Positions 768 to 14,833 of a stretch of 40,768 nt of DNA are shown piece after piece. The translations under genes and the position numbers were made by a program. This DNA comes from Akkermansiaceae bacterium (GTDB taxonomy: Bacteria > Verrucomicrobiota > Verrucomicrobiia > Verrucomicrobiales > Akkermansiaceae), in contig JANXMQ010000001.1 of assembly GCA_025354565.1 (NCBI GenBank), forward strand, positions 1 to 40,768, written 5' to 3'. The notes below the pieces were generated by a model, which searched no databases, was not told where the DNA came from, and saw nothing but the letters and a program-made list of their open reading frames with translations. The first letter of the stretch is position 1; each line of letters begins with the position of its first letter.

Positions 768-1750
768 GTGAATTGTTCGATGAGGGTTTCGAGTTGGTCC
801 TGAATCCGTTCGTTAGGATCGTCCTTGAGAGTCAGGTAAAGGGACAGCGGGTCCACCGTATCCGGGCGGATGGAGAGAAGCGTGGGATTGTAGTTCCACA
901 CTTCCAGACGGGCCGTGGCATCATCACGATCGGCACAGATGCGGTAATCCCCGTTTTCAAGGGCAGTGCGGTGCGCCCGGTGGCTCAAGGCATGCACGGG
1001 CAGGCGGTCATCCGCTATCATCGTCATGCGGCTGAGAGCGGTGATTCCGGCTAATAGGATACCTTGCGGAGGATTTTCCCAGCGCACCCAGTGGGTGGCG
1101 CGGACCGGCGAAGCGAGCCAGGGCAGGGCTTTTTCCCAAAGCTCGCGCCGCTCGAAGCGGAAACGCAGCAACACAGCGCGACCGTCGCGGAAGCTTTCGC
1201 AGAGTTCGGCGGCTGCGAGTTCGTGCTTCACCTTGGCTAACATGTTGGGCGAATAACCGACGGTTTCCGCGATTTTCTGCAGGGGTTGGTGGTGAACGGT
1301 TTCACGTTCCAAATGATAGAGGAGCACGCTTTGGGCGGCAGGGCTGAGGTACTTGGGCACCGGTAGTCGGGGAGCCGGTTGTCGTTCCCTCAAATCAATC
1401 AGGGCTGTCGGCAGGAAGGTCTGGCTTCCCGGGACGATGAAGGGTCTGCCAAGTCGGATCAGGCCCTGGCGGATGTGGGTGGCCAGAACCGGCAGAACAA
1501 GGACCGGAGGCTCTCCAAGGTGGCTGGTCAGCAATTCGGCGAAGTTGGCGTAGGTCGCTGCGGAGGGGGCTTCTTCTCCCAAGGAATCCAGAGCGAGCAA
1601 GAATTCCCTGCCGAAGATTTCCGCCCGGCGCAGCGTGTAGCGCTCCCGCAGAAACAGCGGCAATTTGCCGGTTTCAACAGGCTCCAGCCGGACTTCCCGG
1701 CCCGTCAGTTTTTCCAGATACTCGGCAAGATTTGCGAGCAGACGCTTCAT
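761..1750 (-). CDS. Probable DNA-binding antitoxin/regulator paired with the nucleotidyltransferase
   Basis: A 329-residue soluble protein. The frame can be extended upstream to 1834, but I take the ATG at 1750 because a perfect inverted repeat lies directly upstream of it and would otherwise be inside the gene. A helix-turn-helix is visible at about residues 140-187, with a short recognition-like segment around AETVGYSPNMLAKVKHELAA. The rest is not recognisable to me. In AbiE systems the first gene encodes an autorepressing antitoxin and the second the nucleotidyltransferase, and the same order and overlap are seen here. Canonical AbiEi has an N-terminal winged helix, whereas here the motif is central, so this is an AbiE-like rather than a certain AbiE pair. 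It lies outside the integrated element that starts at 2295. Confidence 0.6.
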   Translation of the reverse strand: MKRLLANLAEYLEKLTGREVRLEPVETGKLPLFLRERYTLRRAEIFGREFLLALDSLGEEAPSAATYANFAELLTSHLGEPPVLVLPVLATHIRQGLIRLGRPFIVPGSQTFLPTALIDLRERQPAPRLPVPKYLSPAAQSVLLYHLERETVHHQPLQKIAETVGYSPNMLAKVKHELAAAELCESFRDGRAVLLRFRFERRELWEKALPWLASPVRATHWVRWENPPQGILLAGITALSRMTMIADDRLPVHALSHRAHRTALENGDYRICADRDDATARLEVWNYNPTLLSIRPDTVDPLSLYLTLKDDPNERIQDQLETLIEQFTW

Positions 1751-1771
1751 AGAAGATACACTGACAAGTGA

Positions 1772-1794
1772 CTCTACACTTTGCAAGTGTAGAG
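1772..1794. promoter_or_regulatory. Perfect 23-bp inverted repeat, candidate operator
   Basis: CTCTACACTT and AAGTGTAGAG form a perfect 10-bp inverted repeat around a 3-bp centre. It ends 22 bp upstream of the start codon at 1750. A TTGCAA that could serve as a -35 box on the minus strand overlaps its centre. AbiEi-type antitoxins are known to autorepress by binding inverted repeats before their operon, so this is the likely operator of the regulator-nucleotidyltransferase pair. A structured leader RNA is the alternative. Confidence 0.6.
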
Positions 1795-1889
1795 TTTTAT
1801 TCGGATGTATTCTCGGCGTCGCGGTCATTGCCAATCAAAGCGAGGCGGGTATTTCCGGCGTCACGAATCATCGCACCATTGCCAGCCTG

Positions 1890-2030
1890 TCAACCGATCG
1901 TAGGGCCGCCCTTGACGATAGATGGGAAGACGAGAATGCCCTTCGCTTCGCGGCCAAGTTGGCGAGCCTTTGGATTCTGGGCGTAGAGCGACCAGAGCGC
2001 GGCCCGCGAGTCACAGGCGATACAAAGCGG
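1890..2030 (-). pseudogene. Fragment of a SYLF (YSC84-type) lipid-binding domain
   Basis: A 46-codon open stretch between two stops, with no start codon, reads SRAALWSLYAQNPKARQLG followed by REAKGILVFPSIVKGG. This is the well-conserved start of the SYLF domain, in which a LY...NP.A..LG..AKG.LVFP..VKGG pattern precedes the lipid-binding core. The frame stops right after the KGG motif, where an intact domain would go on for about 150 residues. Both ends are therefore missing and this is a dead remnant. It lies between the AbiE-like pair and the left end of the integrated element. Confidence 0.6.
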
Positions 2031-2294
2031 TCATATCGGACACTGTAGAGACCAAGGAAGGAAATAGAAGGCTCCGTCCAGGTTCCAGGCAGCGAATTGG
2101 TATTGAAACTCAGTGTGCCGACTGGTTCAGGCCAATACGCAAAAAATGCCCAGCCAACGATACAGTAAAGACAACATGCGAATTATGCGACAGAAGGGGT
2201 TCCGCTGATACGGTTTTTCACCCATTCGTTCTCACTTTCGTTCTCATTTCGCCATTTTCTGGCACTGGAAACGACGTAAATTATTGAATATCAA
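2031..2294. other. Non-coding stretch left of the element
   Basis: I see no coding frame with recognisable content. The only local structure is a short tandem echo, TTCGTTCTCA, twice near 2226-2247. The stretch is AT-richer than its surroundings towards the attachment repeat. Confidence 0.4.
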
Positions 2295-2342
2295 AGGAAG
2301 TACGAGGACTGGGACTCGAACCCAGGACCAATTGATTAAAAG
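2295..2342. repeat. Left attachment repeat (tRNA-Lys 3' fragment)
   Basis: A 48-bp exact copy of 19639-19686. It contains the 3' half of tRNA-Lys from the anticodon loop through the acceptor end, in the minus-strand sense, but lacks the 5' half. It is therefore a left-behind attachment site and not a working tRNA. The match ends sharply on both sides (A versus G before, T versus C after). Confidence 0.9.
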
Positions 2343-2349
2343 TCTATTG

Positions 2350-2363
2350 GATAACAAGTTATC
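2350..2363. repeat. Short inverted repeat beside the left attachment site
   Basis: GATAAC and GTTATC flank a 2-bp AA spacer, 8 bp inside the left attachment repeat. Tyrosine recombinases bind short inverted core sites around the crossover, so it could belong to the recombination site. It could equally be an operator for the integrase gene. Confidence 0.35.
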
Positions 2364-2402
2364 AATGATTGCTGTTTGATTCTCGGTGATAGCGTTTGAT
2401 GG

Positions 2403-2430
2403 TTGCAATCCTTGTAGAATATGGTATATA
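2403..2430 (+). promoter_or_regulatory. Candidate integrase promoter
   Basis: TTGCAA (2403-2408) and TATATA (2425-2430) are spaced by 16 bp. The ATG at 2438 would then lie at or just after the transcription start, giving a leaderless or nearly leaderless message. This agrees with the absence of a ribosome-binding site before that codon. It also argues against the in-frame start at 2396, which would lie upstream of the promoter. Confidence 0.3.
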
Positions 2431-2437
2431 TTCACCC

Positions 2438-3841
2438 ATGAAGGCAATCACGGACGATCAAAGGGAATCAACCATACCTGAAAAAACTGCCGGAAAACTG
2501 CCGGAGGAGACAACCAAACGCACTTTCTCGAAAAGTGATGCCCGCTATTGGATGGGACAGAGCCGACTCTTCAAAGATCACGGGGCGGCAGACTATTCTT
2601 GCCGCTTCTCAGTCCGGGGGAAACGCGCCCAGCTTTGCCTCGGCACGTCCAACCAGCGGGAGGCTGCCAAGCGGGCGGCCGAACTTGTGGCACTGGTGAT
2701 TGCCGATGGGTGGGAAGCAGGTTTTGCCCTCTACCGTCCCGAAGAGAAGATCGAAAAGCCCGCACAGGTAACGGTGGGAGAGTTGATCTCCGCCGCCACC
2801 CGCGTTTCGTCGGCACGCCGGCAGACGCTCGAAGGCTACGCGAAGGCCCTACGCCTGATCGTCGGCCAGATTCGGGAAATCAAGGGCGATGGAAAATTCG
2901 ACGCCCACAAGGGAGGCTCCGCGAAGTGGCGGGAAAAGGTGAATGCCGTGTTGCTGGATTCCGTCACGCCCGCTGACGTGCTCGCTTGGAGGAACAAGCG
3001 CATCCGCGACGCCGAGGGCGATCCGCTCGCTAAGCGCCGTGCAGTGATCACGACGAACAGCCTGATCCGGAATGCCAAAGGACTCTTTGGAAAAAAGCTC
3101 CTGCCATTCGTCGCGCAGTCGGTCACCTTGCCTAGCCCGCTACCGTTCGATGGCGTGCCCCTTGAAAAAAGCCCGTCGCTTCGATACATCAGCCGGATGG
3201 ACCCCTACGCCATCCTTGCGAAGGCCAAGGAGGAACTGGCCGAATCTCAGCCGGAACAGTTCAAGGTCATGATCCTCGCCCTCGTCTGCGGCCTGCGTAG
3301 GGCGGAGATCGACAACCTGCTGTGGCGGGCGTTCGACTTCGCCGGATCCTCGATGAGGGTGGAGTCTTCGGAATTCCACGAACTCAAGAGCGAGGACAGC
3401 GCCGGCAAGATGGACCTGGACGCAGACACGCTCGCCTTATTCCGAGGCTACCGCGCCAAGAAGCCCAAGGCGGTTTTCGTGATCGAAAGCCCGCTCAAAC
3501 ACGATCCCAAGGCCAAGGCCGGCCGCTACCGTTGCAATCCTGTTTTCGACAAGGTGCTTGTATGGCTTCGTAAGAACGGAGTGGACGGCCACAAGCCGCT
3601 TCACACCCTGCGGAAAGAAATCGGCAGCATCATTGCCAGCGAACACGGCATTTTCGAAGCCAGCCGTTATCTCCGCCATGCTGACATTCATATCACCTCC
3701 GCGTTCTATGCCGACAAACGCAAGACGATCACCCCGAAGACCTTTGCCGGACTTCTTGGAAATCCTAACGCTGTTGAAGTAGGCAATTTCACGAATGCGG
3801 AAGTTCCGATTGAGAAAACCGCAGGTAAGACCAATGGATGA
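2438..3841 (+). CDS. int: Tyrosine recombinase (element integrase)
   Basis: It catalyses integration and excision of the element at tRNA-Lys. Using residue numbers counted from the in-frame upstream start at 2396 (subtract 14 for the chosen start at 2438), the catalytic set is complete: Arg301 in CGLRRAEIDNLL, the HTLR box (His403, Arg406), His428 in YLRHADIH and the nucleophile Tyr438 in SAFYADKR. The N-terminal third holds the DNA-arm and core-binding region. The size (467 aa) is on the long side for phage-type integrases. The start at 2438 fits a promoter at 2403-2430. The gene lies just inside the left attachment repeat, at the end away from the intact tRNA. One copy of the element-terminal 22-bp repeat lies inside its 5' coding region (2485-2506). 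The family call is secure. Confidence 0.92.
   Translation: MKAITDDQRESTIPEKTAGKLPEETTKRTFSKSDARYWMGQSRLFKDHGAADYSCRFSVRGKRAQLCLGTSNQREAAKRAAELVALVIADGWEAGFALYRPEEKIEKPAQVTVGELISAATRVSSARRQTLEGYAKALRLIVGQIREIKGDGKFDAHKGGSAKWREKVNAVLLDSVTPADVLAWRNKRIRDAEGDPLAKRRAVITTNSLIRNAKGLFGKKLLPFVAQSVTLPSPLPFDGVPLEKSPSLRYISRMDPYAILAKAKEELAESQPEQFKVMILALVCGLRRAEIDNLLWRAFDFAGSSMRVESSEFHELKSEDSAGKMDLDADTLALFRGYRAKKPKAVFVIESPLKHDPKAKAGRYRCNPVFDKVLVWLRKNGVDGHKPLHTLRKEIGSIIASEHGIFEASRYLRHADIHITSAFYADKRKTITPKTFAGLLGNPNAVEVGNFTNAEVPIEKTAGKTNG
2485..2506. repeat. Left copy of 22-bp subterminal repeat
   Basis: Two tandem copies of an ACTGCCGGA unit make a 22-bp block that recurs exactly, in the same orientation, at 19560-19581 near the other end. 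It lies 142 bp inside the left attachment repeat, within the integrase coding region. Paired tandem repeats near both ends are what arm-type binding sites of an integrase or excisionase look like. Confidence 0.6.
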
Positions 3842-3926
3842 TCGCTATTGATAGTTATTCATGGAAAATTCCGCGACAGTATTCATCCGATTACGCTGAT
3901 CGACTATCAGATAATGCCTTCCCGCC

Positions 3927-5318
3927 ATGAACCAGAATCAATCTCCGGAAATTCACGACTTTATCACTGGCTCAACTGATGAGCGTGCCATCCAAGATTA
4001 CCTCGCCATCCAAGACGACGGCGAAATCGCCAGGCTGGCCGCATTGATGGCACCGAGACAGGGGACTTTCAATCCCGCGACGTTGGTCGATGCCGCGATT
4101 GCTCTTCAAACTGAAACAAAGGCCGGACTGATCCGCCGACGAGAAGCGATCGTGGCAACCATGAATTACAGCACACTGTTGGCTCTCCAACAAGCCCTTG
4201 GTTTCTCACTCTGCCTCTACGTGGACGATGATGACGAAAGACTCCTTGACCCGATAGTCGGCCCGGTGCTTGGGAGGCTGCATTCAACGGTTTCTGCTGG
4301 ATTCAAGCAAAGCGATGCGCTTGAAAACGAGAGAATCGCCAGTGTACTGGCGTGCGCCGACAAACGCGCCAACCTTTCCCGCCCCTCTCTACCATGCGAT
4401 CTTGAAGATGCGTTACGCTATGCTACGAACTCTCCTAGAGTCCCTTGGCCAGCCCTGCAATCTGCATTCATGGATTTCCTTGGAGTCTCCCGAAATACTC
4501 GTGATCAGGAACAACGCGACGACGATGAAGAATCTCTGAGAAATCAGATAGAGCACACTGCACGGATTATTGCCGGGCTCAAAAAAAACCTGAAAAATGA
4601 TTCGCAGACGCTCGCCTCGACCATTGATCATGAGAGAAAATTGCAAAAGCTTCAGGACGATCTAGTCTCACTAGAAGCATTGAAGTGCTATTGCGAGAAC
4701 TTCGAACCCGGCGTTTATACGCCGCCTAATGTCGCGAAAGAATCCTCTGCGATTTTCGCAGAATACTGGCAACAGTCCCAATCCGTGAAAAGCGACAGGT
4801 TACTCGCATGGTTCTCAAGCGAATTTTACTCATTCTGGGAAAAGCACAGAATTGCGTATCAGAAACTCCACACCGCAACCGAGAAAGCCAAGAGCGCAAA
4901 GGCAAAAACTCACAGCAAAGCAGCTTCGCTCGCAGCTAAAGCAAGGGAGAAAGCCAAATGGCTCAAACACACACGAGATTTCGTGAAGTTCGCTAACGAC
5001 AATAAATCGCCCGCGCGTGATAGTTCTGAATTGATCGAAACCTTCGCCGCCGCACACTGTGGCCTTGGCACCATACCAGCCCAAATCAAAGTCCGTGAGT
5101 TTTTGGGAATGCTTTCCTCATATGCCAATAGAGATTTTGACACCTGCGCAATTATTGGGGGCATCCGCAAGAGCGGCATCAAAGCCTTGTCAGATAACGC
5201 AATACGGGAATGTCACAGCCTTCTGAAAACGGCCTGTGAAAGACCTTCCTCGAAAAAAATCGAAAAAATCGTGATGAAGCAATTCTCTGCCACGTCAGCA
5301 GTGAAACGCATCAAGTAA
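3927..5318 (+). CDS. Unknown element protein with central coiled coil
   Basis: A 463-residue soluble protein that I do not recognise. The N-terminal half is mixed and acidic (a YVDDDDER patch near residue 95). The middle (about 195-260) has heptad-like spacing typical of a coiled coil. A Lys/Ala-rich stretch follows (about 305-340, e.g. KAKSAKAKTHSKAASLAAKA), suggesting nucleic-acid or polyanion binding. No membrane segment or signal peptide is seen. It lies between integrase and the excisionase-like gene on the same strand, 85 bp after the integrase, so it belongs to the element. Position suggests a role in maintenance, excision control or cargo defence; none of these can be shown from the sequence. 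Confidence 0.7.
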   Translation: MNQNQSPEIHDFITGSTDERAIQDYLAIQDDGEIARLAALMAPRQGTFNPATLVDAAIALQTETKAGLIRRREAIVATMNYSTLLALQQALGFSLCLYVDDDDERLLDPIVGPVLGRLHSTVSAGFKQSDALENERIASVLACADKRANLSRPSLPCDLEDALRYATNSPRVPWPALQSAFMDFLGVSRNTRDQEQRDDDEESLRNQIEHTARIIAGLKKNLKNDSQTLASTIDHERKLQKLQDDLVSLEALKCYCENFEPGVYTPPNVAKESSAIFAEYWQQSQSVKSDRLLAWFSSEFYSFWEKHRIAYQKLHTATEKAKSAKAKTHSKAASLAAKAREKAKWLKHTRDFVKFANDNKSPARDSSELIETFAAAHCGLGTIPAQIKVREFLGMLSSYANRDFDTCAIIGGIRKSGIKALSDNAIRECHSLLKTACERPSSKKIEKIVMKQFSATSAVKRIK

Positions 5319-5523
5319 GACTCCTCGAAGGAGGGTAGCGCATGACGAACATTAGTTTTCGAGACATCGGCGCATAACGAACCGCGACTTCCACCACGGC
5401 GGCGCATCGCGAAGGGCCAAATCTCGCTTCTTGTCGCATCGCGGAAGGCAGAGTTCCGCCCGTTATGGATGACGATACGGTTTGCGATAGTGAATGCACG
5501 CGAAAGACCGCGCTCAATACACC

Positions 5524-5721
5524 ATGAAGCCAACCATTACACCTACCCAACCCATTTCGGATTCCGAGCCATGGGTGAACACCGCCGCCGCTTGCAAGCA
5601 CCTATCGATTTCATCACCGACGATCCGCCGCTGGATCAAGGCGGGAAAACTCAAACCCAAACGCACGCCAACCGGTGAACTCCGATTTCGTAAGTCAGAG
5701 TTGGACACCCTTCTCGACTAA
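5524..5721 (+). CDS. Excisionase-like helix-turn-helix protein
   Basis: A 65-residue protein with a single MerR/excisionase-type DNA-binding domain. WVNTAAACKHLSISSPTIRR is the helix-turn-helix, and WIKAGKLKPKRTPTGELRF is the wing with the usual Gly/Arg-Phe pattern, ending in a short KSELDTLL helix. I take the ATG at 5524; an in-frame ATG at 5494 would add ten residues without homology. Small proteins of this type act as excisionases or as directional regulators of integrases. The 205 bp before it hold no gene but show a repeated CGCATCGCG(G)AAGG (5403 and 5435) and a CTCCT-CGA-AGGAG stem at 5321-5333, which could be regulatory sites. Confidence 0.8.
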   Translation: MKPTITPTQPISDSEPWVNTAAACKHLSISSPTIRRWIKAGKLKPKRTPTGELRFRKSELDTLLD

Positions 5722-5827
5722 ACAAACCAGGCCGACCCCATGCTTGGAATCGACCCGGTAGAAGTAATCAACTGCCGAAAAGTATCCCAATGCGTGGTGG
5801 CTTTCAATCCTCAATTGAACAACCATC

Positions 5828-6802
5828 ATGAAAAACTTCAATGACGTGAAAGCATGTTACACCATCCGGGATGCGTGGCATGATTTGAATCTAGCAGGCG
5901 AACCCAAGAAATCCTGCCGTTGCCCTTGGCGGGAAGATCGTAATCCCTCCTTCTCGATTCACAATGAAGGCCGACGCTTCAAGGACTTCTCAACGGATGA
6001 GTCCGGTGATGTGGCCGACTTTGTGGCTAGTGCGACGGGTTGGAGCGTCAAGGATTCACTGGCATGGTGTCGAGAACGTGCGTGCATCAACTTCGAGTCG
6101 GGCTTCTCACCAATACCCAAGAGGCAAGAACCCCGTCGAGAATTGGTAATACCTCCCTCCGATCCGGGAGAAAACAGTGATTGGCTGGCAGTGGCAAAGC
6201 TGCGCGGGATTCATCCCTACGCGGTGGAAGTGGCCTCCAAGTTAGGCATCCTTGTATTCGGGAAAGTATGCGGCTATCCATCTTGGATTTTGAATGAGCC
6301 GGGGAAAATTGCCGAGGCTCGACGGATGGATGGCGAGGTGTTTCCGCCTATGGGCACACTGGGCAAGCGCAAGGCGCACACGCTTGCCGGTAGCCGGAAG
6401 GATTGGCCATTGGGGACCAAGATGATAGAAAATCCAGCAGCCGATATTTTCCTGGTGGAAGGAGGTCCGGATTGGCTGGCCGCAATACATTTCCTCGTTG
6501 TTAGGAAACGGAAGGGTCTTATTCCGGTAGCGATGATGGGGCGGGCCAATCGAATCTCACCGGAGGCGCTTGCATTTTTCGAGGGAAGGAGGGTCCGAAT
6601 TTACCCGCATGATGATCCTGATGAAGGCGGGCTTGAAGCGGCACGGCGATGGGCCGGTCAACTCCGAGAAGTCGGCAGCAAGGTGGACGCGTTCACCTTC
6701 GACGGGTTGATACGCGAAGATGGTAAGCCCGTGAACGATTTGAACGACGCTGTTCTGATTCACCACGAGGACAAACTTAAACTGGAGGGATTGTTGCCAT
6801 GA
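5828..6802 (+). CDS. Primase-like protein with CHC2-type N-terminus and TOPRIM domain
   Basis: A 324-residue protein that probably makes primers for replication of the element. Residues 28-45 (KSCRCPWREDRNPSFSI) match the CPxHxDxxPSF core of DnaG-type CHC2 zinc fingers. Cys30 and Cys32 are present, but the usual His is Arg, so zinc binding may be altered. A TOPRIM domain follows: LVEGGPDWLAA near residue 210 supplies the conserved Glu, and HDDPDEGG near 260 supplies the metal-binding aspartates. There is no DnaB-interaction tail of the cellular DnaG kind. Its stop overlaps the start of the DUF3987 gene (ATGA), so the two are translationally coupled and probably work together. Phage and satellite primases of this size are common. 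Confidence 0.82.
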   Translation: MKNFNDVKACYTIRDAWHDLNLAGEPKKSCRCPWREDRNPSFSIHNEGRRFKDFSTDESGDVADFVASATGWSVKDSLAWCRERACINFESGFSPIPKRQEPRRELVIPPSDPGENSDWLAVAKLRGIHPYAVEVASKLGILVFGKVCGYPSWILNEPGKIAEARRMDGEVFPPMGTLGKRKAHTLAGSRKDWPLGTKMIENPAADIFLVEGGPDWLAAIHFLVVRKRKGLIPVAMMGRANRISPEALAFFEGRRVRIYPHDDPDEGGLEAARRWAGQLREVGSKVDAFTFDGLIREDGKPVNDLNDAVLIHHEDKLKLEGLLP

Positions 6803-8968: not shown

Positions 8969-9062
8969 CCGAGCCCTTGGCAAAGTCCCGGCTGGACCAG
9001 AATTCGTTACCAGCAGGGTTGGTGCGGCGGATGGCTTCAAAGGGTGTGATTTCTTGGCTCAT
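8886..9062 (-). pseudogene. Truncated DinD-like gene (N-terminal fragment)
   Basis: The ATG at 9062 overlaps the stop of the EVE gene (ATGA). The first 29 codons (9062-8976) read TPFEAIRRTNPAGNEFWSSR and then DFAK, the strongly conserved start of DNA-damage-inducible protein D / BRO-like proteins. At 8976 the similarity ends abruptly. The frame then runs over the antisense of the neighbouring gene for 29 more codons to a stop at 8886. Full-length DinD is roughly 270-290 residues, so about 90% is missing. The break coincides with the border between the plus-strand replication module and the minus-strand defence module and probably marks a deletion or recombination joint. Confidence 0.65.
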
Positions 9063-9472
9063 GGTAAAGCGAGAGATTGCAGGATTTCAAATCCACCCGC
9101 TGTCAATGGCATCACGGACAGGCGCGGTCGACGAATGAGCGGGAGTTCAGAGAGCCCAGGATTTGCCTTGATCACTTCCAAAGTAACTGGGGAAGGCAAT
9201 GTCTGTATCGGCTGGTAATCGCAGGTCAGCCACTGGGGATCTGCGCTCGTGGGGTCGGGGTATGCTTCGCGGGTGACTTCTAGCAGGCCGACGATGGCCT
9301 GATCTTGCTGGCTGCGGTAGAACAGAACTTGATCTCCCAAGCGCATGGCGATCAGGTGCTTTCGCGCTTCCGGATTGCGGATGCCACGGGGAGTGAAGGA
9401 GCCACGGGCGACGATTTCCGCCCAAGAAGTGCGGAAGGGGGCGAATTTGATGAGCCAGTGGCGGGGTGTCAT
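9059..9472 (-). CDS. EVE-domain protein
   Basis: A 137-residue protein consisting of a single EVE (PUA-like) domain. RHWLIKFAP, then RNPEARKHLIAMRLGDQVLFY, AIVGLLEVTREAYPDPT, LPSPVTLEVIKANP and PLIRRPRLSVMPLT follow the family pattern in order. EVE domains bind modified bases in DNA or RNA through an aromatic pocket. In defence islands they are often found with methylases or modification-dependent nucleases. I prefer the ATG at 9472, where the domain begins; an in-frame ATG at 9493 would add seven residues. It is the last intact gene of the minus-strand defence block and overlaps the broken dinD start by 4 bp. A perfect palindrome lies upstream, so it may have its own promoter. Confidence 0.85.
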   Translation of the reverse strand: MTPRHWLIKFAPFRTSWAEIVARGSFTPRGIRNPEARKHLIAMRLGDQVLFYRSQQDQAIVGLLEVTREAYPDPTSADPQWLTCDYQPIQTLPSPVTLEVIKANPGLSELPLIRRPRLSVMPLTAGGFEILQSLALP

Positions 9473-9513
9473 TTTCGTAGGATTAAAATACACATCAAAA
9501 TTCTTGCAGGCGG

Positions 9514-9533
9514 GAACCTAAGCGCTTAGGTTC
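9514..9533. promoter_or_regulatory. Perfect 20-bp palindrome upstream of the EVE gene
   Basis: GAACCTAAGC/GCTTAGGTTC is an uninterrupted 20-bp palindrome, 41-61 bp before the EVE start codon at 9472. A smaller inverted repeat (CAGCT-C-AGCTG, 9538-9548) follows at once. Palindromes of this size are typical operators of dimeric regulators, such as controller proteins of restriction-modification systems. No controller-type gene is next to it, so an operator for a protein encoded elsewhere on the element, or an RNA hairpin, is possible. Confidence 0.5.
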
Positions 9534-9568
9534 TCACCAGCTCAGCTGCCATGTGTAGCAGGAGATCG

Positions 9569-9588
9569 AACCCCGCCACGGCGGGGTT
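9569..9588. terminator. Strong GC hairpin after the 175-aa gene
   Basis: AACCCCGCC and GGCGGGGTT form a 9-bp perfect stem immediately after the stop codon at 9591 on the minus strand. No U-run follows in that direction, so it may be a weak or Rho-aided terminator, or an mRNA 3'-end stabiliser, partly separating the EVE gene from the upstream operon. Confidence 0.4.
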
Positions 9589-9590
9589 TG

Positions 9591-10118
9591 TCATTTTCTG
9601 GCTTCATACTTGAGAAGCATGTTCGATTTGGAATTTGAATAATCGAGGTGGTAGGCGGTCGTGATCATCCAAACGGTTCCGAACTTTCGAGTTTCCCACG
9701 GGCGTAGGATGACCACGTAGTCGCGATCGCGAAGCCAAAGGTATTCGCGGATTTGTCCGAACTCCTCTTCATGTTCCCAACAAAGGACGCTCGGGTCGGC
9801 GGAGTTGATGATGACGGCGCGACACCAGGCAAGACGCTCCGCGCGCCTGAAGTCCGGCACGCGCTCTTTGCACTTGGTTCTGCGGGCTCGATCATAAACG
9901 ACCTCATCCTTGGTGGTTAGGTGCCAGAAGCCTTCCTCGAAACTGTATGCGTCATCTGCATTCTTACGCGAATCAATCCAGACGCGTTTGCCAGTGTATT
10001 GGATGGATGAGTTTTTGAGTTCTGCCTCGAAAATTGAGTAGAGGCGGCGGACGTAGCCATCCCAATCACCATCGAAGGGGATCAAATCGGGAAGCCAGTC
10101 AGGAAAATCGGTGCTCAT
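9591..10118 (-). CDS. Unknown 175-aa protein in the defence operon
   Basis: A small soluble protein starting 20 bp after the methylase-DUF3800 gene, so almost certainly co-transcribed. It has no signal peptide or membrane segment. Features that stand out are a Cys/Arg-rich centre (RARRTKCKERVPDFRRAERL, about residues 78-97), CWEHEEEFGQIREYLWL, and a C-terminal beta-rich RDYVVILRPWETRK...WMITTAYHLDY. The last pair of strands reminds me of small phage- and island-encoded RNase-like (RelE/barnase-type) folds, but that is a weak impression. No catalytic residues can be assigned. It could be a toxin-like effector or an accessory specificity factor. Confidence 0.65.
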   Translation of the reverse strand: MSTDFPDWLPDLIPFDGDWDGYVRRLYSIFEAELKNSSIQYTGKRVWIDSRKNADDAYSFEEGFWHLTTKDEVVYDRARRTKCKERVPDFRRAERLAWCRAVIINSADPSVLCWEHEEEFGQIREYLWLRDRDYVVILRPWETRKFGTVWMITTAYHLDYSNSKSNMLLKYEARK

Positions 10119-10138: not shown

Positions 10139-13100
10139 TCAGAGCAGGAGGGCGTCCTGGTCATGTTCGGTGGCGATGATGAATTTGGCGCTGCCGGGCG
10201 GGGTATCGCCGGTGAGGGGAGAGCCAATTTTTTCTTCGAGGGCGCGGATGAAAGCGAGCTTGGCTGGGCTCGTTTGCGAACCACGGCGGGCGTAGGCGAT
10301 AGCACCGAGGAAAAGATCAGTGAGTTGCAGTAGGCCGATCTCGTGCGAGCGGACGAGTTGGATGTCCCGGATCGCCTTGGCGGTTTGCAGGCTGTCGCCG
10401 GCGTCGAGTTGAAGCAGGTCGCGCAACTTTGCGATTTTCTGACCGCCGCGGGTGTCCTTGGTGTCGAGGAAGATGCGGTGGCGGTTCTCGGGTTCCACGG
10501 CACTGCGGAGAAGCTGGTAGTAAAGGCGGTAGTAGAGGTGATCGCGGGCGGTTTCCGGCAGGGCGGCGTAGAGTCGGGCCTTGTCGGGAAGAACGAGGCC
10601 TCGGAAGGCGAGCGCTTCCTGTTCCGGGGCAAAGAACCATTCAAGTAAGGCAAGGTAGTGCGGCAGGCGGGCGGGCGAGAGCTTGGTCCACTTGGCCTCG
10701 AAGTGCGGTTCGAAGCCTCCGGACGAGGCGATGGTTCGTAGCGAAGCATGGGCCGTGGCAACCTCCTCCGTCGGGCAGGCTAGCAGGCCCAGCAGCATGT
10801 TCGGCTCACCGTCAGTGGGCAGATGGCAGGATTCGTCACAGTAAAAGTGCAGAACCTGGCGGGCGAGGAGTTGCTCTTCGGTTTTGCCCTGTTTGACGGC
10901 GAGGTTCTTCCGCTGCGCTTCGGCCAGCTTGGGATAGCGCCGGGCATACCAGTTATCTACCTCCTTGATGTCAGCGTCGTTCAAGCCGTAGGCGGCATAG
11001 ACGAGTCGGTCGATCTCAAGCTGCTCGTTGCTGGCGTAGTCGTAATTGGAATCAGCCTTCTGATTTTCAATAATAGTTTGAACCAGATGTCCAAACCTCC
11101 CATTCAAAACAGCAGGAACAATGAGATCCCTAATATTCTCGGACTGAGTGCTGATCGAGTGATTCTCCACCGCTTTGATCCACATTTTGGCGAGTTTCGA
11201 ACAAACTAGGCCGAGGGTTGTATTCAGCAGGTCTGCTGAAACTACAAATCGGCTTCCTTTGACGTCAAAAACGCCGCTTCCACTGAGACGAAATGTCGGA
11301 GAATAAATCCCCGCGTCTGACCACGTCAGCCCACGCACGAAATAATACTCCTCATTCTGAAATCGAGAGGTCAGACGATCATTCCCTCCTGGCTTTCCTT
11401 GAAGCCGATTTTTCTCACGAAGAGTCAAAGTTTTCATGCGGACAATCGCCCATTCACTCCAATCAATGAAATAATCGGTAGGCACCCAATAATTCGGCAT
11501 CCAACCTTCTTCGCTGTCCGACTCGCCTCCTTTATCGTAAGGCACGATGTAACGACCACCGAAGTATCGGGGGGACTTCTTGTCGTCTTTCGAGATGCCG
11601 TGTTGAATGACTTCTCCTCGGAGACGTTCATCCGAACGAATGCCCTCAAGGTCAGCATTGCTCAGGAGAAACTGACGAAAGTCTTCAACGGATCGATACG
11701 AGCCGCGTGCATTCGGATTCTGGAAAAGGTATGCCTCATTGTCGCCGGTTTGGAGGCCGACTTTCACCTCTGCGATGTCCCCGAGCTTCACAAGACTAAC
11801 GTCGCTCCCGTTTAGCGAAACTTTGCGGACAGGCACGCGCTTGCCGCCGATGTTCTCGTGCCGCGAGGGAGCGGTGGTGTCGTTCATCAACGCGAATAAC
11901 TTCGGCGACGCCACGAAGAACGGCAGATTGGAGTTCGTTGTGATGAGATTCTGGCGGTAGTGATAGATCCCGTAGGTCTGGTTGGAGATATTTGCGCGGC
12001 GGGTGAAACCCTCAGTTTGATAGAGTAAATGTAGGAAGCGTTCGTGTTGGTCCCAGATGGAGACATTGGTAAGGTCGGCCATCTGGCAGGTGTGGTTTTC
12101 GGAGCCTGCACCTCGCTGGCATAGGATGACAGCGCAGTTGACGGTGGCCTTGAAGGTGTCGCCAGAGACGCGGATCATCTTATGGACGCGATGACGCAGC
12201 ATCTGTTCGCGCAGTGGGCGGTGCGTTTTGATCGTCATAAAAGTGTCGCTGACGATGTAGGAAAGCACGCCGCCTTCGGCGAGCGGAGTGGATCGGGCGG
12301 GGTCGCCAAGGAAGCGGGCGATAAAGGCTCCGTAGGGATCTTTGGAGCCGAGGCCGAGTGCTGTCTTCACATCGTCCTCGATCTTGGTTCCGCCGTAGGG
12401 CGGATTGCCGATGACGATGTGGAAGGGTGCGGGATGGCGGTAGCCTCCGTCGCTAACCAGCTCAGGAAAGAAGGTTTCCACATTGAAGAACGGTGCGGCG
12501 ATGGTGGCGTGCTTGAACCACTCTGCGAGCCAGTAGGCGTCCTGCTGGCGGCGCATGTTCTCGCGATCCATCGGCGTGCCACCGGCGGGTTTCACGCCCT
12601 TGGCCTTTTCAGCGAAACCGGGGAAGAGACCTGCGAGTTTTTCGCCGATGGAGGTGGCCAGTTCATCGCGCCGGGCGCGGGTGGTGGCGGGTTGGTAGTA
12701 TTCCTCGCGGGCTTGGCGCAGGTCGGCGAGGACGGGGCCGCTGAGCAGACCGTGCCCGGTGTCGGCGAGGGTGTTGGCACAGATGAGGTTGGTTTCGAGA
12801 TTCGGCAGCGAAGAAAGGCCGTAGTTGTGGGCGGGATCGGAGAGGTGGACTTCCTGTTCGACGATGAGGGTGAGGAAAAAGCGCAACTTGGCGATGAGGG
12901 TGGCCAGCGGCTGAATGTCGAGACCGTAGAGGTTCTTCTGGATGAGACCGAGCTTGCGGAGGTAGTTGTAGCTCTTGTCTTGCATTTCCTGCGCAATCTG
13001 AGTCCGGAAGACGGCAGGAATGCGGGACAGGAGCCGCTCTTTCCAGAGGTCGGCCCGGGGATCGACCGAACGGAGTAGCTCGACCATGCGGTGAAGCATC

Positions 13101-14833
13101 CCCATTGGGAAGGCACCGGAGCCGCAGGCGGGATCGAGCACGCGCACGGCCTCCAGCGCATCCACCACGCGGGCGGCGATGGGTGAGAAATCGGCATGTG
13201 GGTCGAGCTCGTAACAGAGCTGACTGAGAAGCTGGAGATCGGCGGGTGTGCCTCCATTTTTCTCGAACTCGGTTCGGAGATGGAGGTGAAGTGCCTCATT
13301 GACCATATAATCCACGATGCGGCGCGGGGTGTAGTAAGAACCGGAAGCTTTGCGGGCGGACTTGGCAGCGGCTTCGTCGTCGGGGTCGATTTCGGCGAGG
13401 AGGTTTTCGAACACGAGGCCGAGCAATTCGGGATCGAGGGCGACATCCTCTTCCAGCGGGGTATTTTCCGCCACGGTGAAACGGTAGCGGTCGAAGATGC
13501 GGTTGAGGCCCTCCATCGGCTGGGGGCGCGAGCCACGCCCGCCTTCGGCGGCGAGCGCGTAGCCATCCTCGCGGCAGGCATAGAAGAGCTTGTTAGGCAC
13601 CTTGAAGGCGTTGCCCTCCTCGTGGGTGAATTTCAGGTTGTCCTCGGGCAGCGCGTCGAAGAGGCCGCCATTGAGATAGGGAATGCGGTCGAAGAGAGAG
13701 TAGTCGAAGTCGGCGGGGAGGTTTTGTTTGCCGACGTAGGCAAGTTTTTTGAGATTCGGGTCGGTGATTTCGCGGTCGTTGGCGGCTTCCGTGCCGGATT
13801 TCCGGCGCTGGTCCATCGGACGGTTTAGCGACTGGAAGAAGATGTTTTGCAGTATGCCGCGGTAGTAGTGGTTTCCTTCTAAGAATGTCCGGGAGCCGCC
13901 GTCCTTGGTGAGGACGCGGCGGTTTTCAGCAGTGTCATAGAGTTCGAGGAGTTCAGCGGGGATAAGCCGCATTTCCTTGATGAACCAAGTGAACAGCGTA
14001 CGGCAGATGAGACGGACGGTGAATTCCTGAGTAGCACGGTCGCGGTTGGCCTGCGTATCCGGGGTTTGATCGGGAAGCTGGGCGAGTTGGATTTCTGTGA
14101 TGGCCCAGCGGAACCAAGCGGAGAGGGATTTGTAGAAGCTGTCTTTGAGTTCCTGAACGGAGAAAATTTTCTGCCAAGCGGTGTCGAGGTCGGCGAATGT
14201 CCGGATGACGGACTCGGCAGAAAGTGATGGCAGGGAAAAGCGCTGGAGGAGATCGAGGTGGGCGCGGTGGGGCGAGTGGAGGTCGATGTCGCGGATGAGT
14301 GAGACTCGTGTTAGCACGTCACGGGTGCCGTCGCGGAGATTGCGGCGGCGGTTGATGACGGCGATGGAGAGGCGAGAGTCTTCACGGAAGAGGACGAGCA
14401 CCGGTTGCGGGACGAGGCGGTTGAGAGCACGGGTGATGTTTCCGTAAATCTCGCGGTTAAGGGGTTGACCGTCCGGGCGTGGATGAAGATCCAACGCGAA
14501 GAAGATGTAGGACTCGATGACTTTTCCATCGCGGCGGAGTTCGAAGGGGGTATCCAGAATCAGACCGAGATCGTTACCTGCTGATGGCGCGAGTTCAGAT
14601 TTGGTGAGTTGGAAGATGAGATGGACGGATTTCCAGAGCGAAAGATGGGCATTTTCCTCGCGAAGGAAGCCGTTGGGGTCGAGGTGGTCTTTGAGCGCTG
14701 CGACGGTATCAACATGCAGGGTGCGCTCCGAGCGGTAGCCGAGAGTGGAGAAGAAGCCAGTGGCGGCGACACGTAAAGGTCGATCCTTGAGGGACGTGAG
14801 GGCTGAGGTGATGGAATGGCGGAGGTCGGGCAT
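10139..14833 (-). CDS. Eco57I-type adenine-N6 methylase fused to a C-terminal DUF3800 domain
   Basis: A 1564-residue protein. The N-terminal ~500 residues are alpha/beta and helical without an obvious PD-ExK motif. GSYYTPRRIVDYMV leads into the methylase. DPACGSG (567-573) is motif I for S-adenosylmethionine binding, and NPPYGG (810-815) is the motif IV catalytic loop of N6-adenine methylases. A target-recognition-like region follows (about 950-1250). After about residue 1325 a complete DUF3800 domain is attached: HFYCDES (Asp1333, Glu1334), HFEAKWTKLS, IFLDTKDTRGG and LQLTDLFLGAIAYARR (Asp1506). These acidic positions are the conserved candidate active site of DUF3800. The methylase would mark host DNA, or act as a phage-sensing unit with the helicase and nuclease upstream. 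DUF3800 is usually a stand-alone protein, so the fusion is notable. It starts 5 bp after the YhcG gene. Confidence 0.88.
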   Translation of the reverse strand: MPDLRHSITSALTSLKDRPLRVAATGFFSTLGYRSERTLHVDTVAALKDHLDPNGFLREENAHLSLWKSVHLIFQLTKSELAPSAGNDLGLILDTPFELRRDGKVIESYIFFALDLHPRPDGQPLNREIYGNITRALNRLVPQPVLVLFREDSRLSIAVINRRRNLRDGTRDVLTRVSLIRDIDLHSPHRAHLDLLQRFSLPSLSAESVIRTFADLDTAWQKIFSVQELKDSFYKSLSAWFRWAITEIQLAQLPDQTPDTQANRDRATQEFTVRLICRTLFTWFIKEMRLIPAELLELYDTAENRRVLTKDGGSRTFLEGNHYYRGILQNIFFQSLNRPMDQRRKSGTEAANDREITDPNLKKLAYVGKQNLPADFDYSLFDRIPYLNGGLFDALPEDNLKFTHEEGNAFKVPNKLFYACREDGYALAAEGGRGSRPQPMEGLNRIFDRYRFTVAENTPLEEDVALDPELLGLVFENLLAEIDPDDEAAAKSARKASGSYYTPRRIVDYMVNEALHLHLRTEFEKNGGTPADLQLLSQLCYELDPHADFSPIAARVVDALEAVRVLDPACGSGAFPMGMLHRMVELLRSVDPRADLWKERLLSRIPAVFRTQIAQEMQDKSYNYLRKLGLIQKNLYGLDIQPLATLIAKLRFFLTLIVEQEVHLSDPAHNYGLSSLPNLETNLICANTLADTGHGLLSGPVLADLRQAREEYYQPATTRARRDELATSIGEKLAGLFPGFAEKAKGVKPAGGTPMDRENMRRQQDAYWLAEWFKHATIAAPFFNVETFFPELVSDGGYRHPAPFHIVIGNPPYGGTKIEDDVKTALGLGSKDPYGAFIARFLGDPARSTPLAEGGVLSYIVSDTFMTIKTHRPLREQMLRHRVHKMIRVSGDTFKATVNCAVILCQRGAGSENHTCQMADLTNVSIWDQHERFLHLLYQTEGFTRRANISNQTYGIYHYRQNLITTNSNLPFFVASPKLFALMNDTTAPSRHENIGGKRVPVRKVSLNGSDVSLVKLGDIAEVKVGLQTGDNEAYLFQNPNARGSYRSVEDFRQFLLSNADLEGIRSDERLRGEVIQHGISKDDKKSPRYFGGRYIVPYDKGGESDSEEGWMPNYWVPTDYFIDWSEWAIVRMKTLTLREKNRLQGKPGGNDRLTSRFQNEEYYFVRGLTWSDAGIYSPTFRLSGSGVFDVKGSRFVVSADLLNTTLGLVCSKLAKMWIKAVENHSISTQSENIRDLIVPAVLNGRFGHLVQTIIENQKADSNYDYASNEQLEIDRLVYAAYGLNDADIKEVDNWYARRYPKLAEAQRKNLAVKQGKTEEQLLARQVLHFYCDESCHLPTDGEPNMLLGLLACPTEEVATAHASLRTIASSGGFEPHFEAKWTKLSPARLPHYLALLEWFFAPEQEALAFRGLVLPDKARLYAALPETARDHLYYRLYYQLLRSAVEPENRHRIFLDTKDTRGGQKIAKLRDLLQLDAGDSLQTAKAIRDIQLVRSHEIGLLQLTDLFLGAIAYARRGSQTSPAKLAFIRALEEKIGSPLTGDTPPGSAKFIIATEHDQDALLL

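Follow-up and report, generated by a model that had tools for sequence, protein, structure and literature searches.

A predicted small-RNA gene beside an RlfA-RlfB pair in an Akkermansiaceae genome and its copies in phages

In the stretch of Akkermansiaceae DNA analyzed here (the window, 40,768 bp in all), an EVE-domain gene and an rlfB-like gene lie on the minus strand and flank 97 bp that hold three inverted repeats. An earlier note had described these as a 20-bp palindrome with the form of a dimer operator, a CAGCT-C-AGCTG repeat and a GC stem, and all three were borne out at their positions when the window sequence was rechecked (Table 1). Its proposal that the stretch separating the nuclease operon from the EVE gene is a control or transcription unit of its own holds; its assignment of that unit to the EVE gene as an operator does not, as the relatives that have both rlfB and EVE (L032 and G029) keep a plus-strand small RNA, its promoter and its terminator. 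Judging from these comparisons, the 97 bp are almost certainly in the main a small-RNA gene, read opposite to the flanking genes. The rlfB stop codon borders the RNA terminator in the window. The names RlfA and RlfB are used because the genes correspond to the P1 pair rlfA (annotated as DUF3800) and rlfB; in PADLOC, rlfA-rlfB is the candidate system PDC-M04. The window fusion protein that ends in RlfA adjoins genes for a YhcG/DUF1016 nuclease and a PLD-Snf2 helicase, and by their sequences the three make up a putative composite defence operon. The DUF3800 domain of L032, a Verrucomicrobiota MAG, likewise ends a long ORF (935-5980, plus strand), similar in size to the window fusion.

Table 1. 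Features of the small-RNA locus and its neighbors in the window
Feature	Position	Strand	Basis or remark
EVE-domain gene	9059..9472	-	PF01878, E 5.4e-31; start codon ATG (9470-9472); small RNA runs divergently
Direct repeat TGTCATTTTC	9467-9476 and 9589-9598		Shared by the RNA tail and the EVE start
-35 box TTGCAG	9504..9509	+	Position and conservation; window copy at -37
Perfect 20-bp palindrome GAACCTAAGCGCTTAGGTTC	9514-9533	.	Covers the promoter spacer and -10 box
-10 box TAGGTT	9527..9532	+	17 bp from the -35 box, inside the palindrome
Predicted small RNA, about 62 nt	9537..9598	+	Antisense orientation to rlfB and EVE
CAGCT-C-AGCTG repeat CAGCTCAGCTG	9538-9548
Conserved 24-nt hairpin CUC-A-GCUG-CCAUGUG-UAGC-AG-GAG	9541..9564	+	Covariation
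GC stem of the intrinsic terminator, AACCCCGCC-AC-GGCGGGGTT	9569..9588	+	Tail TTTGTCATTTTC starts within the last stem bases; terminator 9569-9598
rlfB-like gene (PADLOC PDC-M04B), 175 aa	9591..10118	-	PDLC04360, E 1e-38; homologous to P1 RlfB
RlfA/DUF3800 domain (PDC-M04A)	10142..10870	-	PF12686, E 7.2e-7; PDLC04353, E 4.4e-61
Type IIG/PglX-like methyltransferase fusion, 1564 aa, with C-terminal RlfA/DUF3800	10139-14833	-

The covariance model built for this element (R1) scores the window RNA at 56.3 bits (E 3.3e-15), the window being part of its training set. Two alignments (A1 and A2) were made from 46 of the 83 non-redundant copies, picked by eye for a clear upstream stem, plus the window, so that the stem statistics are biased toward good stems. 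Across these 47 sequences, 99.7% of the cells of the seven hairpin pairs are paired on the plus strand, compared with 90.9% when the hairpin is read on the complement. The plus strand pairs better because A.C mismatches on the minus strand become U.G pairs. Among 84 distinct viral copies, one hairpin pair on the RNA strand is G.U in 43, A-U in 32, G-C in 8 and another combination in 1, and a second pair is U-A in 72, C-G in 10 and otherwise in 2. Since the wobble pairs fix the strand and the second stem with its run of U forms a terminator in the same direction, the RNA is placed on the plus strand of the window. The terminator scan also scored the GC stem on that strand; shuffles of the region average 0.6 terminator-like sites, so the stem is not special by itself. 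The CAGCT-C-AGCTG repeat overlaps the start of the conserved hairpin and therefore has no separate meaning.

Two-sided changes occur at four of the seven hairpin pairs and at 14 of the 18 pairs of the whole structure. In the structure test, four of five measures exceeded all 500 shuffles, and the fifth, which counts further pair types, was matched by 29 of the 500. It is important to consider that sliding the 3' partners by one column mostly retains the covariation score (0.277 versus 0.312) and that the terminator stem, being poorly aligned, is only 63.9% paired in the alignment. Consequently, the case for an RNA structure rests on the hairpin, which RNAalifold recovered from A1 as the only element, missing the terminator stem. 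A conserved, covarying secondary structure is thus present, as expected of a DUF3800-associated RNA motif. Other readings of the same letters were set aside. The wobble asymmetry rules out an RNA on the minus strand; a small minus-strand ORF (MTNPAVAGFDLLLHMAAEL...) has identical third codon positions in three relatives, while the hairpin covaries; and a REP or other repeat element is at odds with one full match in the 5.1-Mb genome, where the palindrome core is unique. Four further matches of the element in this genome are partial (20 to 50 nt, E of 0.02 or more).

L032 and G029 retain rlfB and EVE with the stretch between them. At the RNA start, a block of 28 nt is identical in the window and both relatives; over the small RNA as a whole, the DNA of G029 is 77% identical, and three pairs of its terminator stem are swapped on both sides. 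In G029, the piece before the DUF3800 gene (L003, 1-120) resembles, by eye, a portion of the gene that follows EVE in L004, and looks like a rearrangement or an assembly join. Near the same island, L032 also has two plus-strand matches to the Acido-Lenti-1 RNA, at 9005-9049 (41.8 bits, cut-off 37) and 9700-9744 (34.8 bits, below it). If up to three mismatches are allowed, 4 of the 387 genomes searched in the phylum, the source genome included, contain the 28-nt block, and it also occurs in SPbeta-like phages, Vibrio phages and P1. A looser pattern, written as the minus-strand motif with positions 6, 9 and 20 free, 4 and 17 pyrimidine and 13 purine, matched 109 stretches of viral contigs; because the viral copies were found by this pattern, conservation of the other motif positions comes partly from the selection of hits. 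As a rule the small RNA occurs as one copy; in SPBc2, two matches stand in tandem.

The palindrome has a more restricted history. No other perfect palindrome of at least 14 bp exists in the window, windows resampled with an order-1 model (30 resamples) contain on average 0.1 palindromes of 20 bp, and the chance of at least one palindrome of at least 18 bp in 97 bp is about 0.0003 by the same procedure; a chance origin is unlikely. Its central 18 nt have no second site in the 5.1-Mb draft genome at up to three mismatches. The earlier note had proposed looking for the palindrome in relatives, and this comparison went against it: the palindrome is gone in L032 and imperfect in G029, where 9 of 10 pairs remain (AACC, AGCGCT and GGTT retained, with shorter spacers), so it is not generally conserved. 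Since it overlaps the spacer and -10 box of the small-RNA promoter, a putative binding protein would act first on the small RNA, and the palindrome is possibly a lineage-specific operator of that promoter.

The promoter claim itself rests on position and conservation, because the boxes are poor by consensus and the scan of the region found no promoter at 9504-9532; their score of 6 out of 12 over both boxes was no better than that of shuffles. Of the 22 rlfAB-linked copies, 18 have a TTG that starts 36 to 38 nt ahead of the RNA core, as opposed to 4 of the 74 unlinked viral copies. The linked set leaves out P1 duplicates, L164, L174 and the decayed L058, holds three close relatives (the window, L003 and L032) and takes in the borderline L183, without which 17 of 21 copies have the TTG. 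CTTGC in the -35 region and TAGG.T at -10 are invariant among the window, L032 and G029, and P1 has the same geometry (TTGAAA-17-TAGATT).

The link to rlfA-rlfB appears in searches from either side. Starting from the protein alone, 15 rlfB loci were found in 14 of the 387 genomes, the source genome included, and nine of these loci (L175-L182 and L184, the window being L176) have the RNA directly 3' of rlfB in convergent orientation. L175-L182 entered the later covariance model; L184, which lies outside it, scores 26.2 bits. A tenth locus, L183, is borderline, with 14.7 bits without filters and 11.1 with them, against controls that reached 11.1 bits in 44 loci with filters and 13.3 bits in 29 of those without. 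It therefore rests on its place, which is right, and on a TTGACA at the expected distance. The best rlfB protein match (L174, E 1.0e-46) has an RNA match of only 7.5 bits, and no RNA above 7 bits was seen at the four weakest protein matches (L185-L188) or at the DUF3800 locus L193; L187 has a DUF3800-VIII match just below the cut-off (39.6 of 40.2 bits). In the reverse direction, the RNA was matched in 18 of 387 genomes, again counting the source genome, with rlfA and/or rlfB adjacent in 10 (shortened in L196 and L198) and no rlfAB in the examined locus of the other 8. In P1 (NC_005856), the RNA lies on the strand opposite rlfA-rlfB, its core begins 43 bp past rlfB, the model match abuts the rlfB stop, and the record has no annotated feature there. 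The small RNA thus sits beside DUF3800 genes, with many copies lacking one, and a functional tie to rlfAB is, on these comparisons, highly probable. At two loci, L058/L198 (G062) and L181/L196 (G426), rlfA is shortened and the small RNA retained, and L181 has a single ORF that holds the RlfA start together with RlfB; the sequences point to decay of the nuclease with retention of the RNA.

Most viral copies stand apart from the gene pair. Within 1.5 kb of covered flank, rlfAB accompanies 9 of the 84 distinct copies, all convergent; L069, whose covered flank is too short, is added as a tenth linked copy from its record. No rlfAB lies near 74 of the 84, and 68 of these 74 have at least 1.2 kb covered on that side. 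DUF3800 is encoded in 7 of the 50 viral records with the RNA, which may be fragments; phi3T, titled as a complete genome, has the RNA and no DUF3800 gene. Close to the unlinked copies, a same-strand tRNA was found within 250 nt in 22 of 74, and an opposite-strand tRNA within 200 nt in none of the 74; in L106, L144, L154 and L171, the hairpin begins 3 to 10 nt past a tRNA. The phage tRNA cluster of L171 also contains skipping-rope and ROOL RNAs (10486-10553 and 13328-13908, minus strand). At six SPbeta-like loci (L062, L068, L070, L075, L084 and L104), a DUF3800-VIII RNA lies about 95 to 160 bp from the RNA, and a search of three such records, namely phi3T and the ones for L068 and L070, turned up no DUF3800 gene.

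The predicted structure of RlfA (pLDDT 85.5) is closest in fold to RNase HII (Z 12.2 to 1eke over 167 residues, 3.6 A), with a best Foldseek E of 7.7e-05 and Z 7.9 to Argonaute PIWI; ToxN was absent among the matches listed, which leaves room for a likeness to it. RlfB gave no Foldseek match at E <=0.001. In 12 RlfA sequences, CDESCH (D12 and E13), D136, E177 and D185 are invariant, and RNase HII has an adjacent Asp-Glu motif. By its modeled fold and these acidic residues, RlfA would be an RNase-HII-like nuclease, whose catalytic residues are presumably among the invariant acids. Replacement by other cargo is frequent for accessory genes. Such a replacement of rlfA-rlfB has been described in P1-like plasmids (PMC6906374, in the portions available), and excerpts of a CRISPRi screen list P1 rlfA and rlfB as non-essential (PMC10695390), which is evidence in neither direction. 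An AlphaFold model of DUF3800 had already given an RNase H fold, according to the accessible text of PMC10910872.

The explanation that we favor, with moderate confidence, is that the locus is an rlfAB-accompanying small-RNA gene, transcribed from the promoter at 9504-9532, whose product partners RlfAB and probably inhibits it, with the phage copies acting as mimics. That the RNA has an inhibitory role is, for this analysis, an evenly balanced proposition; that the lone phage copies are mimics falls somewhat short of that. We infer an RNA that restrains or equips RlfAB, with phage copies as mimics, because the arrangement is like pseudo-ToxI (PMC3475682) and the Racrs (PMC10651486) as the available parts of these sources describe them. 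RlfA, a predicted RNase-HII-like nuclease with intact acidic residues, would work with RlfB; the RNA, transcribed convergently into the rlfB 3' end, would bind the RlfA-RlfB pair through its hairpin and either keep it inactive or shape its choice of target. When infection halts host transcription, the RNA would drop and the nuclease would act. A lone phage copy could then supply a hairpin decoy, much like pseudo-ToxI against ToxIN and Racrs against CRISPR, and in the window the palindrome may let a repressor tune the RNA promoter.

Other functions of the locus can be weighed against the same evidence. The operator of the earlier note, with a dimer site and hairpins controlling the EVE gene separately, draws on a palindrome that is improbable by chance, lies 41 bp from the EVE start and keeps nearly all its pairs in G029; we consider it improbable, however, because L032 lacks the palindrome despite having rlfB and EVE, the block invariant in the three relatives is the RNA start instead, and P1 and SPbeta-like phages have the RNA without an annotated EVE gene nearby. 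An element acting as DNA (a repeat, a recombination site or a nick site) would fit the many phage contexts and the hairpins. The single full copy in the genome, the confinement of wobble pairs to one strand, the fixed promoter position in rlfAB-linked copies and the same-strand bias of neighboring tRNAs nevertheless make it very improbable.

Readings in which the RNA acts otherwise than as an inhibitor of RlfAB fare slightly better. Regulation of the rlfAB or EVE transcript by antisense pairing in cis, as with the type I antitoxin RNAs that overlap 3' ends, would agree with the convergent position at the rlfB 3' end in all nine rlfAB-bearing viral copies and in genome loci, and with the complementarity of the window RNA tail to the EVE start (duplex z -2.33). 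Yet the EVE match is lost in the relatives (z 0.1 in L032, -1.32 in G029), the rlfA and rlfB starts of seven loci give z -0.24 to 1.12, and no conserved duplex signal was found for antisense to EVE, rlfA or rlfB. The hairpin and loop are, moreover, alike in Verrucomicrobiota, P1 and Bacillus phages, a conservation that antisense pairing does not need, and copies without rlfAB have no such partner; regulation of this kind is rather unlikely. Some weight, although well below that of a probable reading, goes to a guide or scaffold RNA that directs RlfAB to nucleic-acid targets as an RNP effector: the RlfA fold has some likeness to Argonaute PIWI besides RNase HII, and DUF3800 is found with a Cas12a2 branch (PMC10910872, in part). 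Against it, the conserved part is a closed hairpin, the 3' half is terminator-like, and no guide-like segment was seen by eye in the compared copies. The lone phage copies, for their part, could serve a role unrelated to rlfAB.

RlfAB and the RNA would together form an RNA-controlled, RNase-HII-like anti-phage system, and phages from several groups of hosts, large phages with tRNA genes among them, would encode stand-alone hairpins for counter-defence; we put this forward tentatively. Just as tentatively, some mimics would be placed in tRNA transcripts, and some SPbeta-like phages would bear a cassette of mimics aimed at two DUF3800 systems together. What had looked like a cluster of palindromes is resolved into a predicted gene, and the DUF3800-associated RNAs, so far unexplained, gain a family present in the well-studied laboratory phages P1 and SPbeta, which make the function of the link between DUF3800 and RNA directly testable. 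Mimicry, if true, would explain in concrete terms why phages carry the RNA alone.

No Rfam 15 family reached its cut-off on the RNA, whether in the window, at the 15 rlfB loci or in two more sets of 6 and 11 loci. Matches below the cut-off that overlap it in the window are led by istR (24.6 of 45 bits) and include rnk_pseudo, CRISPR-DR36, RsmY and others. The Rfam DUF3800 models found nothing at the element in the window (E up to 5), in the 11 loci (E up to 0.5) or in the 15 rlfB loci (E up to 1). In the literature covered on DUF3800, rlfA/rlfB, PDC-M04 and SPbeta small RNAs, whose scope did not extend to Weinberg et al. 2017, nothing was recognised as the present RNA, and three B. subtilis papers gave no match to the gene names yonJ, yonK, yonL or yonN. 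Weinberg et al. 2017 is reportedly the main paper on the DUF3800 motifs. Among the texts available in part, PMC11701678 names the DUF3800 RNA motifs I and IX, and PMC10910872 notes the link between DUF3800 and RNA, guessing at its function.

The DUF3800-VIII RNA (RF03075) is likewise a small structured RNA adjoining a DUF3800 gene, but its sequence and structure are unlike those of the present RNA. In three of six loci with DUF3800-VIII (L215, L216 and L217), it directly follows a DUF3800 gene in convergent orientation, and in L219 it lies upstream of rlfAB and divergent from it; profiles found no DUF3800 gene in L214 and L218, and phi3T also carries it without DUF3800. With ToxIN, the locus shares an RNA gene that adjoins a nuclease gene, and ToxI is encoded on the strand of its toxin. 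Here, the tandem repeats, toxin strand and upstream position of a type III toxin-antitoxin system are replaced by a single hairpin on the opposite strand, 3' of rlfB. Phages carry copies or mimics of the RNA in both cases (PMC3475682, available in part), whereas ToxI is a repetitive pseudoknot RNA, as that source and the accessible sections of PMC5772629 describe it, and the present RNA is a hairpin on the other strand; the proteins also differ, being here a two-gene pair with a predicted RNase-HII-like member and a putative inhibition. Racr RNA anti-CRISPRs (PMC10651486, from the portion at hand) resemble the lone viral copies in that phages carry, by itself, the RNA component of a host system, although CRISPR is absent here and the inhibitory effect is a proposal. 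P1 has both genes of the pair as well as this RNA, again on the strand opposite to them; its rlfA stands alone, whereas in the window and in L032 RlfA is fused to a methyltransferase.
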